Assembly (NCBI RefSeq): GCF_032854445.1
Contig: NC_088305.1
Coordinates: 16,353,717 to 16,417,716, forward strand
Length of the DNA stretch: 64,000 nucleotides
DNA from: Liolophura sinensis
Taxonomy: Eukaryota; Mollusca; Polyplacophora; Chitonida; Chitonidae
Direction: 5' to 3'
The position numbers and the translations under genes are program-made. Shown one piece after another: positions 37,403 to 64,000 of this stretch. The notes beneath the pieces are model-generated. The model made no database searches, was not told the origin of the DNA, and saw nothing but the letters and a program-made list of their open reading frames with translations. Within the stretch, counting starts at the first letter, position 1. Each line of letters starts with the position of its first letter.

Positions 37403-37577
37403 ATGCGTGTGTTTGGGTCGTACAGTCGTGGATTTTTGTCCGGCTCAGCGTTGTCCTTATCATGTTGTGCAGTGTGGTACGGTCTTCTTTCCCCGCCGGG
37501 ACTTCGCTGTGAACGGCCGCATCTCAGTGACAGCAATCTGCCCGTGTCATCTGTGGTGGACACAGACCACTCACTAG
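37403..37577 (+). CDS. EXOG: EXOG exon 1: start and mitochondrial targeting/anchor segment
   Basis: 58 codons plus one base, beginning MRVFGSYSRGFLSGSALSLS, a basic then hydrophobic N-terminus like that of human EXOG (RRFLSG followed by a hydrophobic anchor). Donor CTAG|GTGAAC. The exon ends in phase 1, and the carried G completes a GAG codon with exon 2. Confidence 0.85.
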
Positions 37578-40500
37578 GTGAACTAAATGAATAAGGAGTG
37601 AATGAATGTACCATGTGTGAAATGCAATCAGGGTTAGGAAATTATATGGTTGCTGTCCAGATTTATTACAGTTACCCCTGCATGGGCCTGTAAATGTTAA
37701 GTTGAGTTTAATGCGTTACGTTAATCTTAGTAATGTGACTCTCAAAATCCCTAGGCTGGTTTTATGCATTTTTTCTGCCAACACTTGGTAGTCTTCGCCA
37801 AATTATGTGGTCAAGTCCATCCTTTACAAGTTGTCATAGACTTCTGGTATTCGAAATTCTGGCTTCAGTAATGACTGATGACATACAAAGTTTGTCCCTT
37901 ATTAAAGCTGTTGGTTCCAACCCCCCAACAGGGTGAGGGTCATTTCTGGTGAATAAGTATACCAATATTTTCACATTTGATGTGTTTTCATGCGGGCCGT
38001 ACTTTGTTTTCGTTTGCTAGAGGACATCCATCAACTAGATACGAGTCGTGAGATCCTAAAGTATGGAGTCCCTGACCGAGGCCCTGTGGTGCGATCATAC
38101 AGTGGTCATGCTCTTGCTTATGACCAGGCGAGGCGGGTGCCTGTGTGGGTGGCTGAGCACCTCACACCGGACAGTGTTGTGGGTAAGGGCAGTAAGGTGA
38201 CAGTAAAATTGTAAGGCTGTGTACAGTGATCACACACTGATGTACAACAATGTGAGGCGGGTGCCTGTGTGGGTGGCTGAGCACCTCACACCTGACAGTG
38301 TCATGGGTAAGGGCAGTAAGGTGACAGTAAAACTGTAAGGCTGTGTACAGTGGTCACAAACTGATGTACGACCATGTGAGGCGGTGCCTGTGTGGGTGGC
38401 TGAGCACCTCACACCAGACAGTGTACTGGGTAAGGGCAGTAAGGTGACAGTAAAACTGCAAGGCTGTGTACAGTGGTCACAAACTGATGTACGACCATGT
38501 GAGGCGGTGCCTGTGTGGGTGGCTGAGCACCTCACACCAGACAGTGTCGTGGGTAAGGGCAGTAAGGTGACAGTAAAACTGTAAGGCTGTGTACAGTGGT
38601 CACAAACTGATGTACGACCATGTGAGGCGGTGCCTGTGTGGGTGGCTGAGCACCTCACCCCTGACAGTGTCGTGGGTAAGGGCAGTAAGGTGACAGTAAA
38701 ACTGTAAGGCTGTGTACAGTGGTCACAAACTGATGTACGACCATGTGAGGCGGTGCCTGTGTGGGTGGCTGAGCACCTCACCCCTGACAGTGTCGTGGGT
38801 AAGGGCAGTAAGGTGACAGTAAAACTGTAAGGCTGTGTACAGTGGTCACACACTGATGTACAACCATGTGAGGCGGGTGCCTGTGTAGGTGGCTGAACAC
38901 CTCACCCCTGACAGTGTACTGGGTAAGGGCAGTAAGGTGACAGTTAAACTGTAAGGCTGTGTACAGTGGTCACAAACTGATGTACGACCATGTGAGGCGG
39001 GTGCCTGTGTGGGTGCCTGACCACCTCACACCAGACAGTGTCATGGGTAAGGGCAGTAAGGTGACAGTAAAACTGTAAGGCTGTGTACAGTGGTCACCAT
39101 AAAACTGACTACTGTACCACTTTATATATGAAAAGTGAGTATAGAGTTAAACAACAATCAAATTTGAAATACATGTAAATAAATAGATATTGGAATTCGT
39201 CAACCTATTCAGATGTTTGCAAGGTGTTTATTCAAACATATTCAAGACTGATGATACTATATTTTCTGGGAGGCCCTGATATTGGACAACCCAACCAGGG
39301 TAGATTTGTCTTAAAAATCAAAGTGAAAAAGTACATAAATTACGCTAAAAGTTGCTCTTTCATAGCTGAATAGGTTGAGGGATTAGGGCATATGTACTTA
39401 ATAATATGTTGATCAGCCCCATCAGTGGTCTCAATGTTCAGTCATTCACTCGTTTTTAAGAGCTCTAAATAAAAATGATGACCTCTAATTGAGTCCAAGT
39501 TATCGGAAAAGATGATATCTCCTGCGTGAATACAATATTCATAATTTCAGTCCCATATTGTATAATGGTAAATTTGTTGAATTTTAGGAACTTTTTTGTT
39601 TTGCAAAGTCTATGAATGACAAAATGTAATCTATTTCAGACATTTAAATCATAGAAAAAGACCTTATGTTGTGTCAAGGTAATCAGTCTGAAGAGCCTGA
39701 GATATTTTGTTTATCCCTGCTTATTGTAGGTCCTGCTCATAGAAAGCACTCCAAGTTCAAGCCTGATCCGAACATCCCAGCCATGTTCAGCGCTCAGAAC
39801 AAGGATTTCTTGCAAAGTGGGGGCTGGTCTCGGGGCCACATGGCACCCGCAGGGGACTTTAAACATAGCCAGGTCAGTGCTCAGAACAGTGATTTCTTAT
39901 AGAGTTGGGTCTAGTCTTGGGGACACATGGCACGTGGGAGTTCTAACAGCCAGGTGGGTGCTCAGAGCAAGAATTTGCTACAGAGTGGGATCTGGTCTTG
40001 GGGAGACATGGCACGTGGGAGTTCTAACAGCCAGGTGGGTGCTCAGAGCAAGAATTTGCTACAGAGTGGGATCTGGTCTTGGGGAGACATGGCACGTGGG
40101 AGTTCTAACAGCCAGGTGGGTGCTCAGAGCAAGAATTTGCTACAGAGTGGGATCTGGTCTTGGGGAGACATGGCACCTGCAGGGGACTTCTGACAGCCAG
40201 GACTTGCTCTCAGAGCAAAGATTTCTTACAGAGTGGAGTCTAGTCTTGTTCAGCTGTGGGGGTACACATGGCACCCATGGGGACTTCTGACAGCTAGGTG
40301 AGTGCTAAGAACAAGTATTTCTTACAGTGTGGGGTCTGACAACACATGGAACTGGGACAGACTGCTTGCTGTGTTATTCTTTTATCTAGTGCTCCTTTAC
40401 TGAGACGACTTACCAACACATGGAACTGTGACAGACTGCTTGCTGTGTTATTCTTCTTCAGGACAGACTAGGGTGAATGCATGGAACTTCGGACACTTTT

Positions 40501-43500
40501 TAGGGTGAATGCATGGAACTTCGGACGCTTTTTAGGGTGAATGCATGGAACTTCGGACACTTTTTAGGGTGAATGCATGGAACTTCAGACACTCTTTAGG
40601 GTGAATGCATGGAACTTCAGACACTCTTTAGGGTGAATGCATGGAACTTCAGACACTCTTTAGGGTGAATGCATGGAACTTTGGACACTATTGGCCATTG
40701 TCTGAAAAGCACTAAATATTTTCTCCAGGTATGATTATTAGCGGCGATCTACATGTACCATGGAGAATATGAACATAAGGTCACTCACAGCTATTCTGTA
40801 TGCCGTTATTGGTCACCTTATTTTTTTTAATATACATTTTTATATGTAGAAACTGATTTTTTTTACACAGTAACAAATTCAAAACCCTGAGCCTGCTTGC
40901 ACAGAGATCTTAGCTACAATCGATTGTAGACCCTGCACTTGAGTTTAGAATTGATTGTAAAACTAAGTTGTGCCGTTAGCACAAAGGAATTGTAAGGTGA
41001 TTGTAAATTTTTGAAGTTACAATTGCAATCGTAGGTCAAATTTGACTTATACATAATGGAGGCCCATGTGCTGGTCGAGAACATTTATTGCGTACAGTTT
41101 CCAAAGAGTTCTACGACTACGTGATTCAGCAGTTTACAACTGCAGCATGAAAAACTACTTGTAGCCTCTTCTCGAGACAATTACATTGCCCATATTTGCA
41201 AACCAAGTCCAAAATTACCAACAGTATATGTGTTAAAGGCACGTATTTATATGTGACGTTAATTTTTGGTGAGTGGGTGCTTATGGTTTAACGCCATACT
41301 TATCAATTTTTGAGTCGTATAACGACGAAGGAGTCCTTAGAGTGCATGTAATGTGCCTCCTTGTTACAGGACGGATTTCCACTGTTCTTTTATCTAGTGC
41401 TCCTTTACTGAGACGACTTACCAAAGGCAAGTAAGCCACCCCACCCTAGGATTGATCTTGCATGTACTGCCCCCGGGAGTGGATGCTCTACCCACTGAGC
41501 CGTCGGGGAGGGTCTTTAATATTGGGGTGATTGTTAATATTTACAACTGGGTCAAGCCAATTGTTATTTCTGATTGCTAACTTCAACTGTCCTGCTTTGT
41601 GCAGGAGAGTGTCAATTGATGTCATCTTGGGCTTACGATCCCCAGAGCTGGAGAATATTTCCTGGATTCTCCCTTCAACTCTGTCAGAAGACTTGAAGCC
41701 AAATGTACATGTTTGGACGGGGCCAATCTTATTGTTGAGGACTTCAGAAGGGGAGTTTGGTACAGTGTAAAACACCAATCAAATAAATAAATAAATAAAT
41801 ATATGGAAGGGGAGTTAGCCAAACGTCTGAAGTTCCCCAACTTTACCATGCGTTTAGTGGCATTTATACATGACGTTCATCCTGGAAGAAAGGGTCTCAT
41901 ACATTTGTAACAAATGAATTAAAAGTTGTAGACTTAAATGAGCAGGAAAAGTGCTAGCTCCAAAAACTTTTTCCGACTCTTATAAGCCGCATACTAGTTT
42001 GCAAAAATCTTCCGAGAGCCGGGCAGTCTTATGAGTAACAGATAGGGGGAAAACATGTCACTTTGCAGTTTTACCCCTTGGTTATTATTTATTTTGAAGC
42101 ATACATACCAACACATTCACCCCTGGCCCCCCCACCCCTCCCCCCCCCCTCCAAAAAAAAAAAAAAAAAAATGATAATATCAGCCATATATTGGCTACTT
42201 TCGGGAACTTCGAAGGTAACATTGGCCTATGCTTAAACATTTTTCGTGAAATTTGTATGAAAACTAAACTTTTTGTGGGTAAAGTATCATATTACATAAT
42301 TTACAGTCTGATTGGTATAAGCGCCCAACAGGATGAGAGCCCTAATGCTTTCCGCAACAAAAAGGATTCTTGATATGGCCCTGAAGCAGGATCATGAGGA
42401 TTCTTAACCGCTGACTGCAGTGTTTAATAATAGGCCCTAACTCACAAATTTATGTGGCTCTCGCAAGACTTCCACAGAAGTCGAGCCTGGCATAGTAAAG
42501 TAGTCAAATTAAGGCCCGATCACCTTGTATATGCATGGCTGAGATAAGGGAGATAATCGCATGCGTAATCTCCGAGTTGTGTCCCTTGTTCCCCTTTTGT
42601 ATATAGATGTTAAAGGAATACAGATTCTATGCTGATTGACCAACAGTGGAGATAGGCATTATTTGGTTATAGCATGTAGCCTACAGTAAGTATTATTATG
42701 CGTGGAGTGCCCATAATACAGCGTACGCTAGGCATATCATTGCCTGGACTTGTCTGTCTCTCACATCGGCCAATCAGGTAATGAATGATTCTATACAGAT
42801 TTAAGAAAACGGTTTAAGCGAAACTGACATATTTATTTTATATTTTCTAGGCAGCCATGAACTCCACGTTTTACCTGACAAATGTGGTCCCGCAGAACTA
42901 TGAGAACAACGCCGGTTATTGGAACAGATTTGAAATCTTCTGTCGTGATCTCACACGGAGTTTCAGTGACATTCGAGTGTTCACAGGGCCTTTATTCTTA
43001 CCCAATGTTGTGGAGGGACAGAAAAAATACGTGAAATATGAGGTATGTGTCCGCATTAATTAGAATTATGTTTTGTTTCCTCTCACCATAGTGCAGGCTG
43101 CTGTATATATATATTTTTGTATGGGATAAAACACCAATTAAGAAAAAAAAATATAAATAAATAAATAATTCAACTTAGTACATTGATTCCTATGCTTTTC
43201 AGTCGCTAGGGTTCAAATCCAGCCTAGTAGAGGACAATTTTATATTCGTCTGCTTTCACTGCATCTTAGTGGCAGTAACTAATCAACAACTCTGCAGTGG
43301 ATTTGCACAGCCTAGACGTTAGTCTCGCTGGTTTCTCACTTATGTGGTGTACATACAGTGTTTGTAAGTAACAGTTTTGGGGAAAGTTCATCAGTCATTT
43401 GCAGGAGGTTGTTGGTTTACCCCAGGCTTTCCAGTTTCCAGTGTGATCATGTAAGTGAACAATTCTTCACTATGGCAATGAACAATCAAGTTATCAAATA

Positions 43501-44993
43501 TACAGAACAGGCCAAGTAAAACTGGCTAGCCCAATGGCGGGACTGCTTTATATATGTGGTGTGCTTGGTATTGTAATGAGGGAGCAGTAGTTCTCTAATC
43601 TACCACTGCTTGTATTTGTTTGACATCACCAGCCACTCTGTTATAAGTGAAAAGACTGTATGACCTTCATGTTTGTCAACGTACATATTTTGTAAATGTG
43701 ATGAACGAAAAAGATCATGAAGAGGTGAAGGTATTGTTTGCCTACCATCGATGTTAATACAGAAATCCTTTCCAAGACAACATAAAACTTGATCTGCACA
43801 TATGTACACCTTGATTGCATTCACAGTTTGAGAATTCTGGGACATATTGTGTGGACATCTAGCATGGTATGATTTCCAAGTATCATCAGGCATAATTTTC
43901 TGAATATTGTAGTTTATTGATTTATTACATAAATTATTCAACGTCAGCTATAGCATTTCTATAATATCCTTATATGTGTCTTTTAAAATTTTATGTTTTT
44001 TTTTTTTTTATTTTCTTTAATGGTTTAATATTGTCTGTGTGTTTCTGTCTTGATTTTGAATGTCTTCATTCTAACGTGGAAAACCACAATTGTTTCCTGG
44101 TTCCAACATGTTATTGTCAAGAATATTGCTAATGTGGCTTTGTACCTCCATCAATCATGCTTCCTGGTTCCAACATATTATTGTCGTGAATATTGCTAAT
44201 GTGGCTTTGAACCTCCATCAATCATGCTTCCTGGTTCTAACATATTATTGTCATGAATATTGCTAATGTGGCTTTGAACCTCCATCAATCATGCTTCCTG
44301 GTTCTAACATATTATTGTCATGAATATTGCTAATGTGGCTTTGAACCTCGATCAATCATGCTTCCTGGTTCCAACATATTATTGTCGTGAATATTGCTAA
44401 TGTGGCTTTGAACCTCAATCAATCATTCATTCATTCATTTCATCCCATCACAGTGCTGACCATTGTTGTATAATTAAAATATTCTTGAATATGGCATAAA
44501 ACTCTAATCAAATGAATAAATAAATAAACCATTCATTTGCATTGGCCATCAGGTTATTGGAGAAAGTACCGTCGCTGTTCCCACACATCTTTACAAGTTG
44601 ATTGTCGCTGAAAACAACAGCTCAGACCAGAAAGCTGTGGGTGCTTTTGTTGTGCCTAATGAACCACTAGGATTTGACCACAAACTGACTGAGTACCAAG
44701 TGACCCTGGAGGCTCTGGAAGGGATGACAGGCACGACCTTCCTACCGCTCATCAACCAGACAAAACTTGTGGATCTGTGCACAGTGGACACATGTCAACT
44801 TTTGTCAGCCCAAAAGTTTGAACTACACGTTCTTTCAAGTCGACTTCGTAATGCGAAGAATCGTGAAAAACTGGATAAAATCTGGAGTGAATTGGAGAGC
44901 AAAAAGCTTGTTCCAGACACATTCATCACGGAAATCTATGAGAAAAAACGCAAAGAGTTTGAAATCAAGGAAAAGCAGAAATCAGAACTTTAA
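37403..44993 (+). CDS. EXOG: EXOG, mitochondrial endo/exonuclease G-like; join 37403-37577, 38021-38182, 39730-39872, 42851-43042, 44553-44993
   Basis: Five exons join with matching phases (1, 1, 0, 0) into a 370-residue protein; human EXOG is 368. EXOG is a DNA/RNA non-specific (beta-beta-alpha metal) nuclease of the mitochondrial inner membrane, with 5'-exonuclease activity used in mtDNA repair. Visible features: an N-terminal basic/hydrophobic targeting segment with RGFLSG; KFKPDPNIP; the active-site motif SRGHMAPAG with general-base His149; NNAGYWNRFE with metal-ligand Asn180, 31 residues after the His as in human EXOG; GAFVVPNEPLGF; and a charged C-terminal helix ending KQKSEL. Serine, rather than aspartate, in the SRGH motif separates EXOG from EndoG. 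Introns 2, 3 and 4 all contain tandem arrays, two of them copied from the adjacent exon ends. No frameshift or missing catalytic residue is seen. Confidence 0.93.
38021..38182 (+). CDS. EXOG: EXOG exon 2
   Basis: Residues 59-112, including SYSGHALAYDQARRVPVWVA, which matches the conserved EXOG stretch ahead of the active site. Acceptor TTTGCTAG; donor GTGG|GTAAGG; ends in phase 1. The last ~60 bases and the donor are the seed of the tandem array that follows directly in intron 2. Confidence 0.93.
38120..39095 (+). repeat. 123/124-bp tandem array copied from the EXOG exon 2/intron 2 junction
   Basis: Each unit holds a copy of the exon 2 end (YDxxRRVPVWVAEHLTPDSV in the 124-bp units), the donor GGGTAAGGG and about 60 bases of intron. 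The true donor GT is at 38183; copies follow at 38307, 38430, 38553, 38676, 38799, 38923 and 39047, all with the same GGGTAAGGG core. Units of 123 bp lack one G (GCGGTG for GCGGGTG), which breaks the exon frame. Using any downstream donor would add GKGSKVTVKL and a stop. The 123-bp period is divisible by three, which explains a long spurious open frame on the opposite strand. Confidence 0.95.
39730..39872 (+). CDS. EXOG: EXOG exon 3: active-site exon
   Basis: Residues 113-160, with KFKPDPNIPAMFSA and GGWSRGHMAPAGDF carrying catalytic His149. Acceptor TTATTGTAG; donor CAG|GTCAGT; ends in phase 0. Its 3' ~80 bases, including the active-site codons and the donor, are the seed of the 81-bp array in intron 3. 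Confidence 0.93.
39790..40325 (+). repeat. 81-bp tandem array copied from the EXOG exon 3/intron 3 junction
   Basis: Units repeat the exon 3 end from GCTCAGAACAAGGATTTC through the donor. The true donor is at 39873; copies are at 39954, 40035, 40116 (CAGGTGGGTG) and a degenerate one at 40298 (TAGGTGAGTG); the copy at about 40201 has lost the GT. The active-site codons are altered in the intron copies: TCTCGGGGCCACATG (SRGHM) becomes TCTTGGGGAGACATG (SWGDM), so no copy could replace the catalytic histidine. 81 bp is 27 codons, so the frame stays open through the middle copies. Confidence 0.93.
40466..40690 (+). repeat. 32-bp tandem array in EXOG intron 3
   Basis: About seven near-identical copies of TAGGGTGAATGCATGGAACT followed by TCGGACACTTTT or TCAGACACTCTT. 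It lies just downstream of the exon-derived 81-bp array and has no evident similarity to EXOG exons. Confidence 0.9.
41268..41513 (-). mobile_element. SINE family B copy in EXOG intron 3
   Basis: GGTTTAACGCCATACTTATC, GTTACAGGACGGATTTCCAC and a head complement CTACCCACTGAGCCGTCGGG. Confidence 0.85.
41755..41803 (+). mobile_element. SINE family A tail fragment in EXOG intron 3
   Basis: AGTGTAAAACACCAATCAAA followed by (TAAA)n. Confidence 0.6.
42119..42170 (+). repeat. Poly-C/poly-A tract in EXOG intron 3
   Basis: Pyrimidine tract rich in C runs (CCCCCCCACCCCTCCCCCCC) directly followed by about 19 A. Confidence 0.9.
42851..43042 (+). CDS. EXOG: EXOG exon 4: metal-binding exon
   Basis: 64 codons, residues 161-224, with TFYLTNVVPQNYENN and GYWNRFE (metal-ligand Asn180). 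Acceptor TATTTTCTAG; donor GAG|GTATGT; phase 0 at both ends. Confidence 0.93.
43066..43168 (+). mobile_element. SINE family A 3' fragment in EXOG intron 4
   Basis: TCCTCTCACCATAGTGCAGG, GGGATAAAACACCAATTAAG and a (TAAA)n tail. Confidence 0.6.
44094..44430 (+). repeat. 67-bp tandem array in EXOG intron 4
   Basis: Five copies of a unit containing CTTCCTGGTTCTAACATATT and TGAATATTGCTAATGTGGCT. They differ by a few substitutions and end just before a SINE fragment and the exon 5 acceptor. Confidence 0.9.
44440..44529 (+). mobile_element. SINE family A 3' fragment abutting the EXOG exon 5 acceptor
   Basis: Contains AAATATTCTTGAATATGGCA, AACTCTAATCAAATGAATAA and the A-rich tail, ending about 24 bp before exon 5. 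Confidence 0.65.
44553..44993 (+). CDS. EXOG: EXOG exon 5: C-terminal exon with stop
   Basis: Residues 225-370, from VIGESTVAVPTHLYKLIVAE to the stop at 44991-44993. It includes GAFVVPNEPLGF and a C-terminal domain LDKIWSELESKKLVPDTF resembling the EXOG-specific C-terminal extension. The acceptor GCCATCAG has a poor pyrimidine tract and sits about 24 bp after the A-rich tail of a SINE fragment, so the branch-point region is partly SINE-derived. Confidence 0.92.
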   Translation, partial: VIGESTVAVPTHLYKLIVAENNSSDQKAVGAFVVPNEPLGFDHKLTEYQVTLEALEGMTGTTFLPLINQTKLVDLCTVDTCQLLSAQKFELHVLSSRLRNAKNREKLDKIWSELESKKLVPDTFITEIYEKKRKEFEIKEKQKSEL

Positions 44994-45834
44994 AAATGTA
45001 AAATCGTCTGAAGTAGGGACCTTACCTGACCAAATATGGGGGATACATGTAATGCATGTACAATATTAATATTGTTTTGAAAGTCATTACCGCGAAGAAA
45101 TATCAGGATATATAGGGTTGACTAAGTTGCAGATTTTGCCCAATTTTGCGTTGAGTTCTGTTGATATTAGAATTTATGTGTTTTGAGGTTTAATTTTGTG
45201 CGAGTTATGATGGTATCTTACTCGAAAAGCACCCAAAGTAAGATTTTATGACATTTCTTTGCCTATAAAAATGCACTTTATCAGGGCACAGTTTTAGGAG
45301 ATTTTACTCATGTACATGTTATATTGTTAATATACTAGTATATAAATGGCATATATTTTAATCTGTTACTGTCCTGTGGGTAAAAGATATAGTCAGACAA
45401 GGCAGGTAATCCAAAATGGCTGCCATAGCAGAAGTATTTCTTTTCACAGCTATGATAGGAACTTGATCAGGCATTTGGAGATATATTTACTAAATGGGAA
45501 CAAACTCTTTCATAAGCAACAGCACACAACTTTATCATTGTGAATGGTATTTTTTTCAGAATGGTGGCACCTGGTGGCTATGTTTTATATATCTTTTGGA
45601 AAGTATTTCACAAACCATTTTAGATGTACATGTATCTCACCAAATTTTGCCAGTATCTCATACACTTTTAAGTTATTGTGCGCAGATGTGCGATAATGTG
45701 GAAGCATTCATTTCACTTTTATTTTATCACAGTAAACGGTGTTACTATGTCGTAAACTACATTTTTATTACTATTTTAAACTACGTAAACTACTATTTTA
45801 TTTCATCACTGTGTTATTTTGAAGTGTTATTTAG

Positions 45835-46077
45835 GAGACCTCCGTGGCTCAGTCGGTAATGACCCAGGAGCGTCTCACCAATGCGGTCACTGTGAGTTCA
45901 GCTTATGCTGGCTTCCTCTCCAGCCGTAAGTGGGAAGGTCTGCCAGCAACCTGCGGATGGTCGTGGGTTTTCCCCGGGCTGTGTCCGGTTTCCACCCACC
46001 ATAATGCTGGCCGCCGTCATATAAGTGAAATATTCTTGTGTACGGCATAAAACACCAATCAAGTAAATAAATAAATA
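45835..46077 (+). mobile_element. SINE family A, full-length, with imperfect target-site duplication
   Basis: Head GACCTCCGTGGCTCAGTCGG, B box GTGAGTTCAGC, body and (AAAT)n tail. GAAGTGTTATTTA upstream and GAAGTGGTATTTA downstream mark the insertion site. Confidence 0.9.
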
Positions 46078-46317
46078 TGAAGTGGTATTTACTCTAATTG
46101 TTAAAATTTGTTTTAATGTCAGTTCTATATTGTCAGTATATTAGTTTCCAAAAGGCCCGGTCAGCCTAGAGCTTGGGGTACCTATATGTTGGGATTTTTA
46201 ACCCTCATGTTGTTTTAGCTAGCTGTAAGTGTAAATGTGACTGGGCGCTAAATGTATGTCAGACCATATTTCTCAGGGTACATCAAACAGTTGTGTTTTA
46301 TTTCTTAATATGCAGCA

Positions 46318-46347
46318 GTGGCGTAAAACACCAAACAAATAAATAAT
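46318..46347 (+). mobile_element. SINE family A tail fragment
   Basis: GTGGCGTAAAACACCAAACA followed by AATAAATAAT. Confidence 0.5.
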
Positions 46348-47429
46348 ATGCAGCTTAAGAGATATCCTATCTTATAAAAGTACAGAAAAGTTTCACAGCT
46401 TTCTACGTGGAGCCCCAGTTACCAGTCTGGAAATTGTGAAGCACATATATATATAGCTTACAATCTGACAGTGGTGATGTCAACGGGGATAGCTGTCAAA
46501 AAAAACTTTTCCAGGGGAAGAGTCTAAATGTGCTACCGTAAAGTTGTGCGGCCCTAAGAGTAATTTCATTGATGATGTCATTTCTGAAAAATTGACGATC
46601 ATTGAAGCAAAATGTGCATAAAATGAGGTGTTATTAGAAGAGATAAAATATGCCTCAGAAATGGTTTTATTTTTAAGAATTTATTTTGGTTATAACTCTT
46701 TCCCTTTGCCATACAACCATAGTCTTTCTTTTACAGTACCTTTTTCATTTTTATTTTAACCATTTTATCCATGCATTCCCAAGTAACAACATTCATTGTG
46801 TTTTTTGTCATACCTCTACATTCCATCACTCAATCAGTCAGCATTGGGCAGGGAAAGTTTATGACATTCTTACCAAAGGTCGGTGGCTTTCTCTGGACTC
46901 TTCAGTTTTCTCCCCCACAAAACTACCCATTATAGTATGGGTGCAAATATGTTGTGTAAGGAATAAGGAAACGAATGAATCAAGATGGCTGATCAATCAG
47001 CCTCAGTCTCAGTATCCTTCTGATAATCGTGGCATCTTTATTTGGTATTTTGTCCAAACCTCATCAAGATGGTCAATTTGTGAACTTTTTAGTTTTATCA
47101 GGGGTATTGTACTTTTGCTGCTACTCATATTCTTCACAGGTAAAATGGTTACCAATTAAATTGTACATTAAGTCATTTACAAAGCTAGTTATGCTTGCAT
47201 TTGGTTCCAAATATAGAGCTACGACAATGTGCATGCATGGTGTTTCGGAGTTAATTGTACCTGTAATTCCCCACTTTGAGCCGTTAAGTCCACGAGGGCA
47301 GAGTCTAATTGACCGTCGCAGAATATCCCAGTAGATCTTGACGGGTGTGTGAGATTATGAGTTGTGACACAGTCACTTGACTATGGCTTGACTATGTGAA
47401 TTTTTATTCAGGAGGTTGCCAAGCACTTG
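46348..47429. other. Intergenic after EXOG
   Basis: Nothing supported; a 157-codon plus-strand frame at 46686-47159 is low-complexity hydrophobic sequence without family resemblance. Confidence 0.4.
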
Positions 47430-47640
47430 CTGAAATGCGGTGGCGTTCTGTTCCACCCACAAACTTGGCCGCCAACATGCAAGTGAAATATTTTTGAGAG
47501 TGGTATAAAACATCACTGAAATAAAGAAGTCACTTTTAAGCTACATGAAGGGCCTCCGTGGCTCAGTTGGTTAGCGTGCAAGAGCAGTGTAATGACCCAG
47601 GAGCTTCTCACCAATGTGGTCGCTGTGAGTTCAAGTCCAA
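47430..47640 (+). mobile_element. Two SINE family A pieces in tandem
   Basis: 47430-47523 is a degraded 3' part (CCACCCACAAACTTGGCCGC, GTGGTATAAAACATCACTGA). 47550-47640 is a tRNA-like head only (GGGCCTCCGTGGCTCAGTTG to GTGAGTTCAAGTCC). Confidence 0.7.
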
Positions 47641-53440: not shown

Positions 53441-54778
53441 TCATTCATCTGTTTGCTCTAGACGGGACGACACGTTGGAGAAGTCGAATGGTGTACCCAT
53501 AACCCTCTTGTACAGGTCAAGCACGTCCGTGCACGTCGTCTCGAAGTGGCTGCTAGCATCGTATGACTTCGAAATGAAAAGCTGGTTTTCGGTTCCGTCA
53601 TCCAAAGGCTCCAGCAGATCCTGTTCAGAAATAAATTGTTCGCGAATGGTTCCCAGCAAATCAAGGCCTGGTCTCAGCTCTTTGGTGGGGTCAGAGGTTT
53701 CCACAGTGGTGCTGACAATGGCTAAGTAGAAGCCTTTGGCGGCGACATTGTGCGTGTAGGAGACGACACCTATGTAGATATCGTTTTGTCGTCCCACCTG
53801 ACTCTGAGGAATGATGATCTGACAAGAAACGGCGTCGTTGGTGCCTGGTACTGGGTGATCCAGGATGCAGATGGCACGAACCACACGGCCCACTTTGCGG
53901 CACTTGTCCAGGGCGTAGGAAGGGTCACAAATGACAGCCTTGCACCTGGCGGTTTCCTCGCCTGAGCGCACACCAACGACTTTCCCATCTTCCATCTTGA
54001 TTTCGTCAATGGACTTGTCCAGCATGTACGTACCTCCATAAATGGCACTCAGTCTGGCGAACCCCTGTGGCAATTCGCCCAGCCCGTAAAGCGGGTAAAG
54101 GTATGGCGATTTCAGTCCTTCGTAGGCAGCCAGGGATGCGCTGTACAGCTTGATACGGTTAATGGTCTCCTCACATGGCTTCTTGAGATAGTCATCATTG
54201 CTGTACAGGGCAAATGCATGGCCTGTGAAATCAATGGTGTTCTTATCCAGGTTGAAGCATTTAGACATCATCTCTTCTGATGTGGTTTGTTTGGGGTTGA
54301 CATTTTTCCAGGTCTTCGGGTCTTCAGGGTTGAATTCCTGAACGAACAGCAGGAACTGGCGGTATCTTCTCTTTTCAAAAATGCCCATCAATGACGACGC
54401 CAGAGCTTCTCTCTCGTTTGAAGGTACTTTGTAAATCTTTCCGCCTTTGTACACGAAGCTGCCTTCGATTCCTTTGAAATCGAGGTAGCGGGTTACGCCA
54501 GTGTGGATCAGCAGTCTGACCAGTTGACCATTAGCCATGAGGAATTTGGGGATAAGGTCGACGTTCCAGTCCCTACCCCTTCCCATCCCGTCCCCAGGAG
54601 AATCTTTCTTGAAATGCTTATACAACTCCTCCAATGGATTCATCGATGTGCTCTCGCCGCCGTAGTATTTATTTCGGTCCATGTGCAACACCTTCTTCCC
54701 AGCTACGGACAGCAGGCCGCTAAGAATACACTCCTTTAGGCCTGTACCCAAAACAATCACATCGTATTCCGCATCCAT
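53441..54778 (-). CDS. GDI2: Rab GDP dissociation inhibitor, single-exon gene
   Basis: 445 residues with no intron, the same length as human GDI2. GDI extracts GDP-bound prenylated Rab proteins from membranes and keeps them soluble in the cytosol for recycling. Family hallmarks: N-terminal Rossmann-like motif [11 protein letters not shown] (residues 11-21), [13 protein letters not shown] (31-43), [20 protein letters not shown] (65-84) of the Rab-binding platform, [11 protein letters not shown] (182-192), [20 protein letters not shown] (224-243) with AIYGGTYML, and [10 protein letters not shown] and HFETTC near the C-terminus. Lys15 stands where vertebrate GDIs have Thr. Vertebrate GDI genes have many introns, so this is either an intact retrocopy or a lineage-specific intronless gene. 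No frame damage is visible and the codons look selected, so it is probably functional. GDI1 and GDI2 are vertebrate duplicates; the symbol marks the family only. Confidence 0.95.
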
Positions 54779-54866
54779 AGTGAGTTCTTACCAAAATCTG
54801 GGACAAACAGCTTCCGCAATCTAATCGGTCTGACGAAGCCGCCTCCTGTCTGATTGATTATTCAAT
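54779..54866. promoter_or_regulatory. Compact bidirectional promoter between GDI and a plus-strand exon
   Basis: Only 88 bp separate the GDI start codon (minus strand) from the ATG of a divergent plus-strand exon at 54867. The interval contains GATTGATTATTCAAT, with CCAAT-like elements on the minus strand. The plus start reads CAATATGGCG, close to the YY1-type AAnATGGCG motif seen at many TATA-less metazoan promoters. Confidence 0.5.
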
Positions 54867-55004
54867 ATGGCGAATCTTCTGTATAAGTTACGTCCCTTGG
54901 ACAGCTCTTTTATGTCAGGAGGCCTGAACACATTTACAACACTTTCAGTTTGTCTAACATTTCCTTGGCAATCGTATGTTGTTTACGGCAAATATTTGCT
55001 TTCT
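54867..55004 (+). CDS. First exon of a plus-strand transcript divergent from GDI; BBS12 leader or a small membrane protein
   Basis: ATGGCG opens 46 codons (MANLLYKLRPLDSSFMSGGL...) that end exactly at a consensus donor TTTCT|GTAAGTATG in phase 0. I do not recognise the peptide. Three readings are possible: it is a 5' exon with an upstream ORF spliced to the BBS12 exon at 57160 (the vertebrate BBS12 gene has a non-coding first exon); it joins the candidate exon at 56058 (acceptor TTTTTTGTTTCAG), giving a 65-residue protein with a hydrophobic end IFLKCVERHLSIYILWFAL; or it is untranslated. RNA data are needed to choose. Confidence 0.4.
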
Positions 55005-57159
55005 GTAAGTATGAGAATGCGTTCCAAGAGGTTTACCCGAAGCGCATCTGAAAGTTAATGGTCACTGACAATCTGTTGGCCGAAAGTATTCACTAAAAGT
55101 GGATGAAATTAGTGCGTAAAATTTGTGGTTGATAGAAGTGACGAAACGAGTTGTGAGTGTCACATGTTCCAGTGTGAAGTTCAAGCAAAACAGACACGTG
55201 GATATTGATACGCGTGGCGTCAATGAAATTCACATTTGTCACGTGGTCTTGCAATAAAGATAAAATAAAGTTTGATTAAATGTCTTAAAATGCATATAAA
55301 CAGCAATTTAAAAAAAATCATGAGAAATTAACAGAAAAAACGTATAAAATTATCACCTGACTGTGTGTAGGCCTACTCAGGTTTTATTGTTATTCTAATA
55401 AGCAGTGAAAGTAGTCCCAGCATTGTATTGGTTTTATTATTATTTTATAAGTAAATGATGTTCATCCTGTGCAAGGGAAGAGAGCATAATAATTGATTTA
55501 TTAGTGTTGCTCAATGTATTAAAAAAAAGTACTGGCAGGCTAATCAGACTGATAAACTAGCATTGAACATTACAAAATGAATTACATATAGTTGCTGATC
55601 TCTAATTAATAGTATAGTTCCAGTGCAGTTGTGTGTGTTTGAGTCCAACCTTCACCGATTTGCTAGCCCGTGGTTAAATATTGGCGGGATGTTCAGTTTA
55701 TGACTGTGAGATGAAGTGATAGTCACCAGATTTTCCATTAAACCCAGCCTTACCTTCAGTGTTTGAGTTAAATATCCCTGAGTGCTGTGTAAATGATTAA
55801 GTAAACAAGCTCACTGGAAGTTTTAATAAATGTGTATATCAATGTTCACAACAGAACAAAAATGCAAAAAAACGGTGACTTCAAAATGACAGGCCCATTT
55901 TAAAAAACAAAAAAGAAGTGAGGAAATCTGTTGTTCAAAACAGGACAAAAAAAAAAACAGCCGTATTTCAAGTAAAAGAAAGGTAAAATATGAAGTAAGG
56001 TTCATCACATAGACAACTGAGAACTATGCATAAAAATACATTTATTTTTTGTTTCAGATTTTTTTAAAGTGTGTGGAAAGGCATTTAAGTATTTACATAC
56101 TGTGGTTTGCTTTATGAGGCATATTGATGGTATCTGGGAACTCGGACGTCACATTCCTTTTTGCCCTGATGTTGACCAGAACAAAGGAATTTTTGTGAGC
56201 ATTATTTCAGTAATTCTTTACTTACAGGTAAAAAGAGTTTTTCCATATTCAGTGTTGTGATTAAAGTTAAAAAAACTTCCTGTGACGTCAGAGTCCTAAA
56301 CCTGATAGAATGGTCCATAAAGCCCACCTTAGAATTCAGATGTTTGAATGCCTTTAACTCTCTTCCCAAATATCAAAAAACATAAATGAAAGTATATTTT
56401 ATGCATAGTTTTAAGTGATCTGTTTAGTGATGCCTACATCAAGTTTTAGAGGCCTTTACTATTAAAGTTTGTCAGAAAGAATTGAAGAATATTGAAACTC
56501 TCTGTCTGTAAGCTAGCCCCGGGTAGAACCATGTATGAAGTTTCAATTCAATTCGAGACCACGGATATTATGGTTAAATTCACTCACACAGTCTCAGAAG
56601 TGAAAATGTTGTCCAGTTCACACCGAAGTGAATTCAAAATTCTTGGCAAAACAAATCTAAAACTAGGGTTTGTTGCTTTTCACAATTAACATATGCTGTC
56701 CAGAATGGTCTAACATCAGTAACACCTGGTTAATATCAGCCAATGTCAGGTGTAGTATTTTTGGAATATTTCCCATTGTGTTCATTTCTCCGTATACCTC
56801 ACCATGTTATCTATATCCCTGTTGTCTGCTATGGACTGCCTCACAATTACCTGTTTGGGACTGTTAATGCAACAAGATTATAATACAACTGTGAAAATTA
56901 TTAGACGACAAATTAAACCAATTAATTAGAAGAGCAATGTTTCTCAGGAGAAACACAATTAAAACAGTGGTTAACGAACCATGTGGGAAATAATAAGCAG
57001 CTTATTAATTATTTACGTGAACTGTTTCAATTGAAGCAATATAAAAAAGGTCAAACAACCAAAGTATAAATACATGCGATGAAATGAAAGTAAATAAATA
57101 GAAGTAAAAGCTTTTATTATAATGTTAGGTTATAACCTATGTTTTCTCCTATCCTGTAG
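55005..57159. other. Interval between the divergent first exon and the BBS12 start exon
   Basis: AT-rich, apparently intronic. It contains a possible exon start at 56058 after TTTTTTGTTTCAG (see the 54867 exon). Nothing else is supported. Confidence 0.4.
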
Positions 57160-57206
57160 ATGAGTCGTTTAATATGGAATGTTGTGATACGGATAACAGA
57201 TGAGTT

Positions 57207-57264
57207 ATGGCGGGCTGCTGGGCAGGAGGGAGACACAATGGACTGGAAGCCGCTGTGGTGTTAG
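57207..57264 (+). CDS. BBS12: BBS12 exon with start codon
   Basis: 19 codons plus one base, MAGCWAGGRHNGLEAAVVL, with donor TTAG|GTAAGG. The exon probably begins at 57160 after CCTATCCTGTAG, leaving 47 bases of leader. Confidence 0.72.
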
Positions 57265-60200
57265 GTAAGGAAGTACTGATGATTTGAAGACAATACATCT
57301 GTTGTAGCTTTGATTACAGTTATGCCTAGTGGCAACATAAAAAGGAGCGCTAACCATCTTGGCCGCATTAAGAGTTGGAAATCAGTGCCATGCAATGAGA
57401 CAAGTATATGTAGCTTATCCTTGAAGAAAATTGGTATGTTTGCAGATATACAGTAGTTTAAATGTTGATGTTCATTAATATTAAAAGTACCACGGGTGCA
57501 TATTTCTGGCAGACAGCCATGGATTTGATAGGCGAGTTTAGTGTTTGTAGTCTTGCTGCAGCTAACCAGCACTGGTGTATGAATGAATGATTGATTTTGG
57601 CATAAGGAAGAAGAAAACGTGAAAATGATGCCAGAATCATATAATAAAACGCAAAAAGTTGTATGCAAATAAGATCTTTAATATTTTTAAAAATTTTTTC
57701 CTTCAGCAGAAAAAGATATTTGAAAATACTTTGGTATGGTGCATATTTGGGACAAACTTTTGGTATATATCGTCTTTACATCATAATGCTGTAAATAATG
57801 AGGTGATGCATGTCTAATAAATTTATTCATATGTAAGTTTGTTGCTTATATCCTAATTCATGCCCTTAATCTGAATTATGATAATATGTATGACTATATT
57901 AAAAATATAAATAGGATAAAAATTTGAACACATTGGTTAGCTGAAAAGACAGAATTCTAGTGCAAATATTGAAATAGTGAAACATGTGTTATATCCTCAT
58001 TTATAACATTATTGCACTACGGCATAAAACACCAATCAAATAAATAAATAAATAACATTATTACACAAAAACCATTTACACAAAAAGTTGGCCCCAATTA
58101 CCCACCGTACAAAAATTATCATCAAGTGTCTTTTTCTCTTTAAAGAAAAATCAAAAAAAATATTGCAAACCACATTCTCTTTTCGACTTAACTTCATGTA
58201 ATTGTTATGTTTTCTCCACCTTTAATGCTCCGTCAGTAATAATTCAGCCATAATGTTGTGACTGACCCAAGATTAAAGTCTGAAGGTGCATCTACTACAT
58301 GTACCTGGTGCAGGTTTGACAAGTTTATGTTGACACTCACCTGGAAGTGCCTCTGCCACATGTAGCTGGTGAAGGGTGGGCAGGTTTACTGTGGACACTC
58401 ATCTGGAAGTGCCTCTACCACATGTAGCTGGTGAAGGGTGGGCGGGTTTACTGTGGACACTCATCTGGAAGTGCCTCTACTACATGTAGCTGGTGAAGGG
58501 TGGGCAGGTTTACTGTGGACACTCATCTGGAAGTGCCTCTACTACATGTAGCTGGTGAAGGGTGGGCAGGTTTACTGTGGACACTCATCTGGAAGTGCCT
58601 CTACTACATGTAGCTGGTGAAGGGTGGGCAGGTTTACTGTGGACACTCACCTGGAAGTGCCTCTGCCACATGTAGCTGGTGAAGGGTGGGCGGGTTTACT
58701 GTGGACACTCACCTGGAAGTGCCTCTACTACATGTAGCTGGTGAAGGGTGGGCAGGTTTACTGTGGACACTCATCTGGAAGTGCCTCTACCACATGTAGC
58801 TGGTGAAGGGTGGGCAGGTTTACTGTGGACATTCACCTGGAAGTGCCTCTACCACATGTAGCTGGTGAAGGGTGGGCGAGTTTACTGTGGACACTCATCT
58901 GGAAGTGCCTCTGCCACATGTAGCTGGTGAAGGGTGGGCAGGTTTACTGTGGACACTCACCTGGAAGTGCCTCTACCTCATGTAGCTGGTGAAGGGTGGG
59001 CGGGTTTACTTTGGACACTCACCTGGAAGTGCCTCTACCACATGTACCTGGTGAAGGGTGGGCGGGTTTACTGTGGACACTCACCTGGAAGTGCCTCTCC
59101 CACATGTACCTGGTGAAGGGTGGGCGGGTTTACTGTGGACACTCATCTGGAAGTGCCTCTGCCACATGTAGCTGGTGAAGGGTGGGCAGGTTTTACTGTG
59201 GACACTCACCTGGAAGTGCCTCTGCCACATGTACCTGGTGATTGGTGGGCAGGTTTACTATGGACACTCACCTGGAAGTGCCTCTGCCACATGTACCTGG
59301 TGAAGGGTGGGCAGGTTTACTGTGGACACTCACCTGGAAGTGTCTCTACCACATGTACCTGGTGAAGGGTGGGCAGGTTTACTGTGGACACTCACCTGGA
59401 AATGCCTCTGCCACATGTACCTGGTGAAGGGTGGGCAGGTTTTACTGTGGACACTCATCTGGAAGTGCCTCTGCCACATGTGCCTGGTGAAGGGTGGGCA
59501 GGTTTACTGTGGACACTCACCTGGAAGTGCCTCTGCCACATGTAGCTGGTGAAGGGTGGGCAGGTTTACTATGGACACTCACCTGGAAGTGCCTCTGCCA
59601 CATGTACCTGGTGAAGGGTGGGCAGGTTTACTGTGGACACTCACCTGGAAGTGCCTCTGCCACATGTACCTGGTGAAGGGTGGGCAGGTTTACTGTGGAC
59701 ACTCATCTGGAAATGCCTCTGCCACATGTAAAACTGACCACCATTGTTAAATGAAATATTTTTGAGTGTGGCGCTCAACAAAAAAATAAATTTTATATGG
59801 GGTTCAGCATAAAAATTTGAACAGAATGTTTTTCTTATTTGAACTATAATAAATATATATATGTGTTTTTTTAATCCGTGAGTTTTACATCATGATTTCA
59901 TGGACAAACCACAAAGCACCTCGAATCAGGAATTTGTTTCACATTTGTTCGTTAAGAGGTGGGATATCCGAGTTAAGCCACTCCTTTCTCGAACGTGGAG
60001 GTTGGAGGATGTACATGTGGCTCAGTGAGAAAGGTGCATGGTGTCGGTTCAATTCCAGCCTTGGACATTTGTAGATTGTTTTGTTCTTTATGTTTATAAG
60101 GGCATTCGTGATAATAGGGTGTGTACAAATCTTGTCAGGCCCTTAGTGCATTGTTATTACCTCCAGTGTACAAGTGAAAATTTCAGAAATGGTTAAGTAT

Positions 60201-63200
60201 TATCTAAAACAATAAGTCAGTCTAATGATGAATCAGTCAAAATGCCCAATATGGGTTTGTTAAAAGAAAACAAAAGAAAAAATCAATACAGTGATGAAAT
60301 AAATACATGGGTTAAATTTGCTGTAGATTGATATGCCATGAATTTATTGTCCTGTATCTTTTGCAGGTCAACTTGGGAACTCTCTTCTTGGCAGCAGTCA
60401 AAGGTTTGTCATTTATTATATTGATGAGCAGAAGAAAAAACGCATGTTGCAAATTGAAATTATCACACTGCAACATTAATGTCAAATACCCTAATTCTTC
60501 AACCTTTTCAAAGGCCTCTGCGACCAATGTTTTGAAACTTTCTAAGAGAACTGTGGGGAGTAGAGTAATAATTTGCACAGTTTTTTGAATCTTGCATCTT
60601 TAATGACACAAGCACATCACATTATCATCATTTTCCTAATATTTGTAGGCATAAAGTCCACTGAAAAGAATGCTTTAGTGGTTGAAAAGGTGGAAAATGT
60701 ACAGTAAATAGAATTCTGATGCACAGATGAAGTCGTGTGTTTAGAGAGACACTATCATGTTTCTTATCGTCACGTCATTGTAGATGAATATCTTCATTGT
60801 GTTAATTACCGCCCCCGGATAGCACAGTTTGTGGAGCGTCCGCTTCAGGAGCGGTATATCCAGGATCAATCCTAGGTCGAGTCACTCCTAAGACTTTAAA
60901 AGAGGAAGTTGTAACTTCCTCGCTTGGCGTTCAGCATGAAGGGGATAGTGCAATGACTGGTTGACCCGTATCAGTATAATGGCTCGGGCGGGGCGGCTTA
61001 CTTGTCTACGGTAAGTCGTCTCAGTGTCGTCTCAGTGAAGCAGCACTAGATAAAAGAGCGTTGGAAATCCATCCTGCAACAAGGAGGCACATTACATACA
61101 ACCTAATGATTCCTTTGTCATCATATGACTGAAAAATTGTTGAGTATGACGTTAAACCCCAAGTACTCACTCATTCACTCATTGTGTTAATTCAACTCGC
61201 ACATCACACGGCCCCCTTGTTGTTCTTTTCTGCATCATTTTATTCTGATAGATTGCAAAATTTCAATATTGTCATTTTTGATTTGTCCCTGAACCACATC
61301 TGGCATCCTGGCATTTTTAATGATTGTTTGTGGCCTTAATTGCTGTACCAATTGTGCTACAGGGGTTTGCCTTGTGGTTTGCCACAGCAAACAAAAAAAT
61401 GTCTCTGCTGGACTGGGGCTATAATGGTAGGTGCTTGGTAACCCCAATTTCTGTATTAAGAAATTTGTATAAAATAAGTGTCTTTTAATTGTTACAAAGA
61501 AATGGGCCATTATTTTCTGTTTTTTCATTTCATTTGTTTCAGAGATATTTCCATAAAATGTAAACCTTTCGTCCATTGCATGTATCTGACAGTGCATAAG
61601 AGTTAAGATTAAAGAATCTTTCTGTTGGGATATGTTCCAGGGTTGTAGACATGTTTTACGCGTACATGTGCAAGTATGTTGTGAAGTTTTACAGTGTATG
61701 CCAAACATTTATCACCAAATCATTTTTTTTTCATTCACGGTTTTCATCTTTTATCTTGAACAGTAAATTTCACATATATCTTATATTTCAGTTTGAAATG
61801 CATTGTGGGTGATGATAACTCTAGTGTGACAGTTTCTGATCCAGTGGAACTTCTGAAAAATCTGGATATTGAGGTATTTGCTTGGAATATTTTCGCTTGT
61901 TAAATGAATTGATTTTCCTTGTGTTTTTCCCTTATTATTTCCTTGTGTTCTTCCCTTTTTATTTCGTTAGTATTTTCCTTTATTATTTCCTTATTGTTTC
62001 CTTATTGCTCAGATGTTATTAGGCGTTGCTTCCATCCCATCCTCAGGCATGCAGAGTTTGAGATTTCCCTCTTCTTTGTGAAAGTTTGAGATTTCCCTCT
62101 TCTGTGTGAAAGTTTGAGAATTGAGATTTTCCTCTTCCTTGTGGAAGTTTGAGGCTTTCCTCTTCCTAATGGTAGTTTGCCCCAAGCAGATCATTTCTTT
62201 CATGGGCACACCATTTTTTGTCTATCTAATAAACTGACTGCCATAATATACATGTAAGTTAAATATTCTTGAGTATGATACTAAACCCCAGTCAATCGAT
62301 CAAACAAACAAAGAGTGGATCATTCAGTGAATTTTGGCTTTATTATTACTGACCTACATGTACAGATTAATTAGTAATCAAAACTGTAAGAGATTATGTT
62401 CCTTAAAATGGCCACACCTTTGACATATGTAGCTGACAATATTGTCGTACTTTGTCTGTCATTTCAGTATATTGTAGGTCAGTCTCACCAGAGTACACAC
62501 TGAATTATTCTGCCTGTCACTCCTGCATCCTGCAGGTCAGATCATACGGGACACCTGTCAGTCTCATCAGAGTGCACACTGAATTATTCTGCCTTTCATT
62601 TCAGCATCCTGCAGGTCAGATCATACGGGACACCTGTCAGTCTCACCAGAGTGCACACTGAATTATTCTGCCTGTCATTTCAGCATCCTGTAGGTCAGAT
62701 CATACGAGACACCTGTCATTCTCACCAGAGTACACACTGAATTATTCTGCCTGTCACTCCTGCATCCTGTAGGTCAGATCATATGAGACACCTGTCAGTT
62801 TCACCAGAGTACGCGCTGAATTATTTTGCCTGTCATTTCAGCATCCTGTAGGTCAGATCATATGAGACACCTGTCAGTCTCACCAGAGTACACACTGAGT
62901 TATTCTGCCTGTCAATTTAGCATTCTGTAGGTTAGATCATATGAGACACCTGTCAGTTTCACCAGAGTACACGCTGAATTATTTTGCCTGTCATTTCAGC
63001 ACCCTGTAGGTCAGATCATATGAGACACCTGTCAGTCTCACCAGAGTACACACTGAATTATTCTGCCTGTCATTTCAGCATCCTATAGTTCAGATCATAG
63101 GAGACACCTGTCAATTTCTCCAGAGTACACACTGAATTATTCTGCCTGTCATTTCAGCATCCTGTGGGTCAGATCATACGAGACACCTGTCAGTCTCACC

Positions 63201-64000
63201 AGAGTACACACTGAATTATTCTGCCTGTCATTTCAACATCCTGTAGTTCAGATCATATGGGACACGTGTCAGACTTACCAGAGTACACACTGAATTATCC
63301 TGCCTGTCATTTCGGCATCCTGTAGGTCAAATCGTACACGACACGTGTCAGTCTCACCAGAGTACACACTGAATTATTCTGCCTGTCATTTCAGCATCCT
63401 GTAGGTTAGATCATATGTGACACCTGTCAGTCTCACCAGAGTACACACTGAATTATCCAGCCTCTCATTTCAGCATTCTGTGGGTCAGATCATATGAGAC
63501 ACCTGTCAGTCTCACCAGAGTACACACTGAATTATTCTGCCTGTCATTTCAACATCCTGTAGGTCAGATCATAGGAGACACCTGTCAGTCTCACCAGAGT
63601 GCACACTGAATTATTCTGCCTGTCATTTCAGCATCCTGTAGGTTAGATCATACGAGACACCTGTCAGTCTCACCAGAGTACACACTGAATTATCCAGCCT
63701 CTCATTTCAGCATTCTGTGGGTCAGATCATATGTGACACCTGTCAGTCTCACCAGAGTACACACTGAATTATCCAGCCTCTCATTTCAGCATTCTGTGGG
63801 TCAGATCATATGAGACACCTGTCAGTCTCACCAGAGTACACACTGAATTATCCTGCCTGTCATTTCAGCATCTTGTAGGACAGATCATACGAGACACCTG
63901 TCAGTCTCACCAGAGTACACACTGAATTATTCTGCCTGTCATTTCAGCATCCTGTAGGTCAGATCATACGGGACACCTGTCAATCTCACCAGAGTCCACA
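57207..64000 (+). CDS. BBS12: BBS12 chaperonin-like protein, 5' part; join 57207-57264, 60367-60403, 61792-61873, 63948->64000
   Basis: Four exons join in phase (1, 2, 0) to give 76 residues before the window ends: RHNGLEAAVVLGQLGNSLLG, SSQSLKCIVGDDNSSVTVSD, PVELLKNLDIE, then HPVGQIIRDTCQSHQSP. This follows the start of vertebrate BBS12 (RHMGLQQL..., LLESLDL..., AVGQLLNEAVQ). BBS12 is a divergent group II chaperonin-like protein that works with BBS6 and BBS10 and the CCT chaperonin to assemble the BBSome of primary cilia. The vertebrate coding region is essentially one exon, whereas here it is split into at least four. An in-frame TGA two codons before ATG 57207 supports that start. Intron 3 holds the 79-bp array copied from the exon 4 start. 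Confidence 0.75.
58016..58056 (+). mobile_element. SINE family A tail fragment in BBS12 intron 1
   Basis: CTACGGCATAAAACACCAAT followed by CAAATAAATAAATAAATAA. Confidence 0.6.
58267..59740 (+). repeat. 62-bp tandem array in BBS12 intron 1
   Basis: About 23 copies of a unit containing TTTACTGTGGACACTCACCT and TGGTGAAGGGTGGGCAGG. On the minus strand 14 units read CCAGGTGAGTG, a perfect 5' splice consensus; nine carry CCAGATGAGTG instead. Some units have one extra T. Short open frames in it are artefacts of the repeat. Confidence 0.92.
60367..60403 (+). CDS. BBS12: BBS12 exon 2
   Basis: 37-nt microexon between CCTGTATCTTTTGCAG and AAAG|GTTTGT, coding GQLGNSLLGSSQ with split codons at both ends (in 1, out 2). 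The frame is also open beyond the donor for about 25 codons (RFVIYYIDEQKKKRMLQIEI), so intron retention would extend the protein before a stop. Confidence 0.68.
60808..61186 (+). mobile_element. SINE family B, full-length, in BBS12 intron 2
   Basis: Head GCCCCCGGATAGCACAGTTT ... GGATCAATCCTAGGTCGAGT, body with CTTGGCGTTCAGCATGAAGG and TGACTGGTTGACCCG, and 3' end GACGTTAAACCCCAAGTACT with CATTCA repeats. Confidence 0.88.
61792..61873 (+). CDS. BBS12: BBS12 exon 3
   Basis: 82-nt exon after TTATATTTCAG, coding S-LKCIVGDDNSSVTVSDPVEL and LKNLDIE, with donor GAG|GTATTT in phase 0. It aligns with the VRLLESLDL region of vertebrate BBS12. Confidence 0.75.
61915..62165 (+). repeat. Two short tandem arrays in BBS12 intron 3
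   Basis: TTCCTTATTATTTCCTTGTG-type repeats at 61915-62005, then about four copies of GAAAGTTTGAGATTTCCCTC plus TTCTTTGT at 62050-62165. Confidence 0.75.
62468..63947 (+). repeat. 79-bp tandem array copied from the BBS12 intron 3/exon 4 junction
   Basis: Unit starts (CATCCTG or variant) fall at 62526, 62605, 62684, 62763, 62842, 62921, 63000, 63079, 63158, 63237, 63316, 63395, 63474, 63553, 63632, 63711, 63790 and 63869, then the true exon at 63948, every step exactly 79 bp. A partial unit precedes at about 62468. Each unit has the acceptor tract TGCCTGTCATTTCAG and the exon start. The AG is kept in 13 of 18 decoys and lost at 62526, 62763, 63237, 63316 and 63553. The decoys read carry an in-frame TGA at codon 8 (a CGA-to-TGA type change) or at codon 19. 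Confidence 0.95.
63948..64000 (+). CDS. BBS12: BBS12 exon 4, truncated by the window end
   Basis: Follows TGCCTGTCATTTCAG and reads HPVGQIIRDTCQSHQSP in phase 0. It is the last member of the 79-bp array and is chosen as the true exon because its end (CAGAGTCCACA) departs from the repeat consensus (CAGAGTACACACTGA), which would give a stop. Confidence 0.68.

Follow-up and report, generated by a model that had tools for sequence, protein, structure and literature searches.

Why should tandem repeats sit exactly on splice junctions? The question is raised by a stretch of 64,000 nucleotides from the chiton Liolophura sinensis (G000:C11:16353717-16417716, in an assembly of 609 Mb), which we call the window. 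Three minisatellite arrays span an exon-intron border here: arrays 1 and 2 at donors of EXOG, array 3 at an acceptor of a second gene, which we refer to as BBS12-like. A sequence-only reading of the window had attributed the arrays to a local mechanism that duplicates junction-spanning segments. Our analysis confirms and extends the observation, and partly supports that interpretation. With a probability of roughly 0.8, we regard the arrays as mirages, i.e. as ordinary tandem duplications astride an exon edge in a minisatellite-rich genome, followed by minisatellite-like turnover.

Anatomy of the three arrays

All three arrays are present and each contains an exon edge, as had been reported: they are recovered with Tandem Repeats Finder (TRF), and their splice sites fit two NCBI proteins of the species, P0001 for EXOG and P0121 for the BBS12-like gene. 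Features lie on the plus strand unless stated otherwise.

Array 1 (38122..39096; TRF and alignment) crosses the donor of EXOG exon 2 (38021..38182), whose last ~60 nt represent copy 0. It consists of eight copies of 123-124 bp; some 60 nt of each come from exon 2 and some 63 nt from the intron, with the donor in between. This donor, TGG|GTAAGG, is intact in 8/8 copies, and the context GGGTAAGGG is the same in all of them. According to the alignment, copies 4 and 5 are identical and there is slight decay at the array border. The in-register match runs on into the exon, from position 38098, upstream of the start called by TRF. Its longest exact run to copy 1 measures 7 nt, which is equalled in 55 of 20,000 shuffles; we infer that this match may be the mark of a short repeat that seeded the duplication. 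All seven downstream donor copies come after a stop in the frame of the exon.

Array 2 (39781..40345) lies at the donor of EXOG exon 3 (39730..39872), of which the last ~90 nt include copy 0; it was delimited by TRF and alignment, the right end being placed by eye on the alignment. The exon tail (39781-39867) is repeated as six intronic copies of ~81 nt or more each. The unit is thus essentially exon-derived, and the donor adjoins the border between two units. AG|GT is kept at five of the six copy sites when the true donor is counted. Copies 2 and 3 are identical whereas copies 5 and 6 have decayed, giving a clear decay at the border. Each of the five downstream copy sites is preceded by an in-frame stop, and one has lost its GT. 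In this same region the chiton EXOG carries one extra glycine (QSGGWSRG, 39816-39829) compared to four relatives and human EXOG. Since the intronic copies keep the same length as the exon at this site, the insertion seems to predate array 2, or else to have spread by conversion.

Array 3 is the longest. Its part inside the window (62453..64000; TRF, alignment and the downstream continuation L004) holds 20 acceptor copies, and with the continuation included the total is 47 (counted by motif, allowing at most 8/30 mismatches). The 79-bp unit joins the last 34 nt of the intron, with pyrimidine tract and AG, to the first 45 nt of the exon. The earlier guess that this array sits at an acceptor of a BBS12-like gene was right, although the true acceptor could not be seen within the window: it lies ~2 kb past the window end and is the last of the 47 copies. 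The last copy inside the window encodes ...HQSP where P0121 requires ...HQKTY. Exon 4 (L004 4061-4186, based on P0121 and the continuation) diverges from the unit after 45 nt, at the codons for KTYGTG, and the array accordingly ends 45 nt inside this exon (L004 4105, equivalent to window position 66105). The AG is kept in 36/47 copies including the true acceptor, i.e. in 35 of the 46 upstream copies, and is lost in 11/47. For 45 of the 46 upstream copies a stop is met before exon 4. The nearest decoy, 59 nt upstream of the true acceptor, shifts the frame and leads to a stop just inside exon 4.

The gene models behind these statements are as follows. Five EXOG exons spliced from the window give 100% identity to the 370-aa P0001, which bears out the splice sites at the protein level; the translated product has matches to structures of human EXOG (best E 2e-98) and to the Endonuclease_NS domain. 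Besides exons 2 and 3 these are exon 1 (37403..37577, coding part; coding sequence identical to P0001), exon 4 (42851..43042), with array-free edges, and the last exon 5 (44553..44994), for which the closest array stops at 44426, off the junction (TRF and P0001 for both). In the BBS12-like gene, exons 1 (57207..57264, coding part), 2 (60367..60403) and 3 (61792..61873) exactly match the start of P0121. This protein is listed by NCBI as 'uncharacterized protein LOC135477422' and has a Cpn60_TCP1 (chaperonin) domain. A search with the 78-aa peptide gave no match for the identity of the gene, and a padded query then retrieved P0121. The matches listed for P0121 in PDB, 60 of 95, are group II chaperonins, and 'BBS12' therefore remains a name that we assume for this gene.

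Intron 1 of the BBS12-like gene contains another array according to TRF, with 23 copies of 62 bp (58286-59730). Many of its units contain CAG|GTGAGT, a donor consensus, on the opposite strand; no exon is known there. Between EXOG and the BBS12-like gene sits an uninterrupted frame of 445 aa for Rab GDP dissociation inhibitor (GDI; 53444-54778, minus strand; Pfam E 2e-219), an intact single-exon gene and possibly a retrocopy. The earlier count of nine short exons is reached only when GDI is included; EXOG and the BBS12-like gene have eight exons in the window.

Why the copies lie on the intron side

P0001 and P0121 fit the outermost sites only. When a junction-spanning segment is duplicated in tandem, the complete exon survives at one end of the array, and the remaining copies carry just a part of it. 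If splicing uses the outermost site, the additional copies fall within the intron by definition. Only this site encodes the protein, and the direction of an array, which calls for no mechanism of its own, is therefore uninformative on how it grew. The statement that the arrays always grow into the intron thus holds as a description of their placement and fails as a clue to mechanism. The accompanying idea, selection keeping the exon intact, is supported as the likely reason.

We propose the following course of events. A duplication by slippage or unequal exchange would start by chance in a segment that lay across the edge of an exon, after which the array would expand and contract like any other minisatellite. 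Expansion would add copies without overwriting neighbours, and the extra copies, each with a piece of exon and a splice signal, would land on the intron side of the used site. The used site would be the outermost one, adjoining the complete exon; inner sites would add sequence leading to a stop. Exon definition (pairing with the other splice site of the exon) would favour the outermost site at either kind of border. We infer slippage or exchange as the cause and exon definition as the route by which decoys are ignored, with no need for a trigger linked to splicing.

The coding exons themselves are intact. Corruption of the exons by conversion from the arrays was considered as well, and a comparison of conserved columns with 18 other animals gave no clear sign of it. 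Agreement with the majority extends to 0.92 (12 columns) and 0.89 (19 columns) of the conserved columns for the exon parts of array 1 and array 2, compared with 0.80 and 0.78 for EXOG exons 4 and 5, which have no arrays at their edges.

Chance overlap or a preference for junctions

The window contains 15 arrays, covering 14.2% of the bases. Three reach a junction, one of them past the window end; the acceptor of exon 4, which lies beyond the window, was placed at the window's end for the test. Junctions of undetected genes in the left half of the window were not counted. If whole-array footprints are placed freely, a mean of 1.35 junction arrays is obtained (P=0.14), and if the footprints are kept off coding sequence the mean is 0.25 (P=0.003). 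Within the two gene bodies the footprint null yields 0.71 (P=0.024). Using 31 arrays in the window, P is 0.14 for free footprints and 0.006 for footprints barred from coding sequence. All P values from the window are optimistic because it was chosen for showing the pattern.

A sample from elsewhere in the genome was taken at positions fixed in advance. It comprised 28 stretches of 10 kb, of which 20 lie at even intervals on contigs C1 and C11 and eight on C2-C7. These 280 kb hold 44 arrays (17,948 bp, 6.4% of bases). The initial 200 kb contain 39 arrays, covering 8.4% of bases against 13.9% for the window by the same rule. The counting rule was fixed after a donor array had been seen in one of the first 20 stretches (L005), and the test is therefore not blind for that case. 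The rule was applied with changes, run ends replacing GT/AG sites and random placement replacing circular rotation.

With codon-scored runs, two of the 44 arrays lie on run edges against approximately 1.0 expected (P=0.27). Run-based variants give P values of 0.18-0.27, the most favourable expectation being 0.80 (P=0.18). A splice-aware caller puts 3/44 arrays on predicted junctions; the acceptor array in L005 is added by this caller only. Exons mostly inside an array were removed before the count (5, 5 and 2 at thresholds 14, 16 and 18). At threshold 14 the caller finds two of five known internal exons exactly and overlaps three; it makes 58 calls against 23 in a reversed-sequence control (45 against 14 at threshold 16). 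Depending on which of three thresholds is used, the footprint null mean is 2.09 (P=0.34), 1.87 (P=0.28) or 1.55 (P=0.20), and the observed count amounts to 1.4-1.9 times this null.

The same structure recurs in other genes. Two of the sampled arrays belong to one gene in L005 (G000:C1:4000001-4010000) that we take to be nucleolin-like. The first (830-1281) has four acceptor copies reading CTTTCTACAG|GTGGAGTTA, the last of which leads into a predicted exon with translation VELPNVPEDNLADEESEKP. The second (5922-6306) is a donor array after a predicted acidic exon; read in frame from that exon, its first intronic copy runs into a stop. The third (L021 8600-8851) has 2.2 acceptor copies at the predicted exon PLVAKMNDNSKMKRKFSSFF. 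The decoy acceptors, three in L005 and one in L021, meet stops in all three frames. A Pfam search on ten exon-like runs gave one clear match, Tra1_central, and the L021 exon weakly resembles Pcf11_helical.

Some stretches of the sample stand out in their own right. The 10 kb of L005 hold five minisatellite arrays, including the two at predicted junctions. L017 (G000:C11:8000001-8010000; guanine-plus-cytosine (GC) content 0.48) has no arrays and eight exon-like runs on both strands, some with translations reminiscent of the integrases and packaging ATPases that large DNA transposons encode. In L020 (G000:C11:18000001-18010000) one short peptide run occurs five times at a spacing of ~1,672 bp; this is a long-unit tandem array, above the 500-bp limit of TRF.

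Window and sample together yield six junction arrays in four genes within ~0.35 Mb. Apparently such arrays are common in this genome. Junction arrays thus recur, and with minisatellites so abundant, overlap by chance may be a sufficient cause. It is doubtful that arrays arise preferentially at splice sites, thousands of times and linked to transcription or splicing, as a standing source of new introns; for the number of times, scaling three per 280 kb gives ~6,500 genome-wide (Poisson ~1,300-19,000), and scaling the run-based count of two gives 4,353 (527-15,726).

A number of points weigh against our explanation. The null judged nearest to the biology places one-unit seeds, because expansion inserts copies and leaves the neighbours intact. 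In the window it expects 0.17 junction arrays against the three observed (P=0.0004, or 0.0009 with 31 arrays), inside the two gene bodies 0.42 (P=0.005) and in the sample 0.50-1.88 against three (P=0.014-0.29), which makes the sampled count 1.6-6 times the expectation. In view of these expectations for window and sample, some real junction excess, needing a further cause, is possible. In the window, the outermost site is taken as the used one from the gene models of NCBI; in the sample, ab initio exons serve for this. For the exon parts of the two EXOG arrays, the animals used in the comparison average 0.94 and 0.95, slightly above the chiton, and the arrays may thus have affected the EXOG exons to a small degree.

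Whether chance placement is unlikely, as claimed earlier, depends on the null: the seed nulls of the window and the nulls barred from coding sequence agree with the claim (P<=0.006), free footprints do not (P=0.14), and the sample lends it weaker support (P 0.014-0.34). Enrichment at junctions over random overlap is unproven with 3/44 arrays in 280 kb, and so is its absence; these data neither establish a several-fold excess nor rule one out.

One alternative is a targeted origin, as first suggested, in which replication stress linked to splice sites, R-loops or repair duplicates junction-spanning segments. The seed nulls speak in its favour, and GC-rich seeds would not account for an excess, as a GC-weighted seed expectation is still 0.16. 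We nonetheless consider such an origin unlikely. The pattern was the reason for choosing the window, and neither the footprint null of the sample nor the run-based count departs clearly from expectation (P=0.20-0.34 and P=0.27). On the coding strand the GC skew is +0.25 for array 1 and +0.24 for array 2, both at donors, against -0.19 for the acceptor array 3. R-loop-type G skew is thus found in two of the three arrays and reversed in the third, and this difference in sign is evidence against a shared R-loop cause, contrary to the mechanism first suggested. Several arrays away from junctions carry such skew as well. Finally, arrays 1-3 have no sequence in common (blastn, E up to 1).

A second alternative holds that the arrays are functional, the repeated donors and acceptors giving alternative splice sites or regulating splicing as in human IFI6, where downstream repeat units act as donors (PMC4526556). 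The persistence of splice signals (8/8, 5/6 and 36/47, true sites counted) would fit. All alternative copies of arrays 1-3 lead to a stop, however, so that the isoforms would be truncated, and the loss of AG in 11/47 acceptor copies is what drift predicts. We regard function of this kind as very improbable. The same low rank is given to intron gain, with the arrays as remains of introns that arose by tandem exon duplication (the Rogers model, or its potato variant). Array 2 would suit this idea, with units essentially derived from the exon and AG|GT re-created at most copy borders, and in potato a border-crossing duplication did produce a new intron (PMC4974935); but the chiton arrays occupy only part of each intron, and there is no sign that these introns are new. 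An assembly artefact by collapsed or expanded repeats is hardly credible: long near-identical arrays are prone to assembly error, and array copy number may be off, but the copies bear distinct substitutions and indels, and unrelated genes of two large contigs (C1 and C11) show the same structure.

Mirages and other known systems

The founding paper on mirages is said to be that of Canestro in 2002. The sequence-only reading knew of no named class, whereas the descriptions of amphioxus mirages that we cite fit the chiton arrays (PMC3087553, PMC3902484). In these passages the term stands for tandem repeats spanning exon-intron borders, with Adh3, the globins BflGb6 and BflGb9, troponin C and PGBD5 as examples. 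Both kinds of border are affected, and AG or GT is kept in many but not all units. Data including reverse transcription PCR of globin transcripts suggest undisturbed splicing (PMC3087553), and intron gain is proposed as an outcome (PMC3087553, PMC3902484).

As far as these descriptions go, the likeness is close. In both animals the repeats are minisatellite-like tandem copies of donor or acceptor borders with the exon edge inside the unit, and splice signals remain in many copies, in the chiton at the rates given above. In arrays 1 and 2, as in amphioxus, inner copies are homogenised and borders diverged. Involvement extends to 5' as well as 3' borders: the chiton window has two donors and one acceptor, and the sample adds a single donor plus two acceptors. 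Differences concern the host, a chordate there and a mollusc here, and the copy number: six (globin) and seven (PGBD5) in the amphioxus cases described, against 47 in array 3. No mollusc case was found among the matches listed from the open-access literature searched, judged by title and start of abstract, and the passages matched in one chiton genome paper include none on junction arrays (PMC12005716). The mirages are hereby carried from amphioxus to a mollusc, which suggests that they are frequent wherever minisatellites abound.

Array 3 is moreover a natural experiment on splice-site choice, with 35 AG-bearing near-copies upstream of the true acceptor. Given these decoys, exon definition and scanning predict opposite outcomes. 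Junction arrays are also raw material to test intron gain by duplication.

Reportedly, the minisatellite of human IFI6 (6-16) with its multiple splice donors was described by Turri in 1995. Like arrays 1 and 2, it is a minisatellite at an exon end with units bearing splice donors, and two downstream repeat units are stated to serve as donors (PMC4526556). In the chiton, by contrast, all 12 downstream sites of arrays 1 and 2 (11 with GT) follow an in-frame stop. The RNA-dependent RNA polymerase (RdRp) gene of potato, where a duplication across an intron-exon border led to a new intron (PMC4974935), shares the tandem duplication over such a border and the splice signals inherited from the parent copy. 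It differs, as described there, in having two copies and a new intron, whereas the chiton has many copies within an existing intron.

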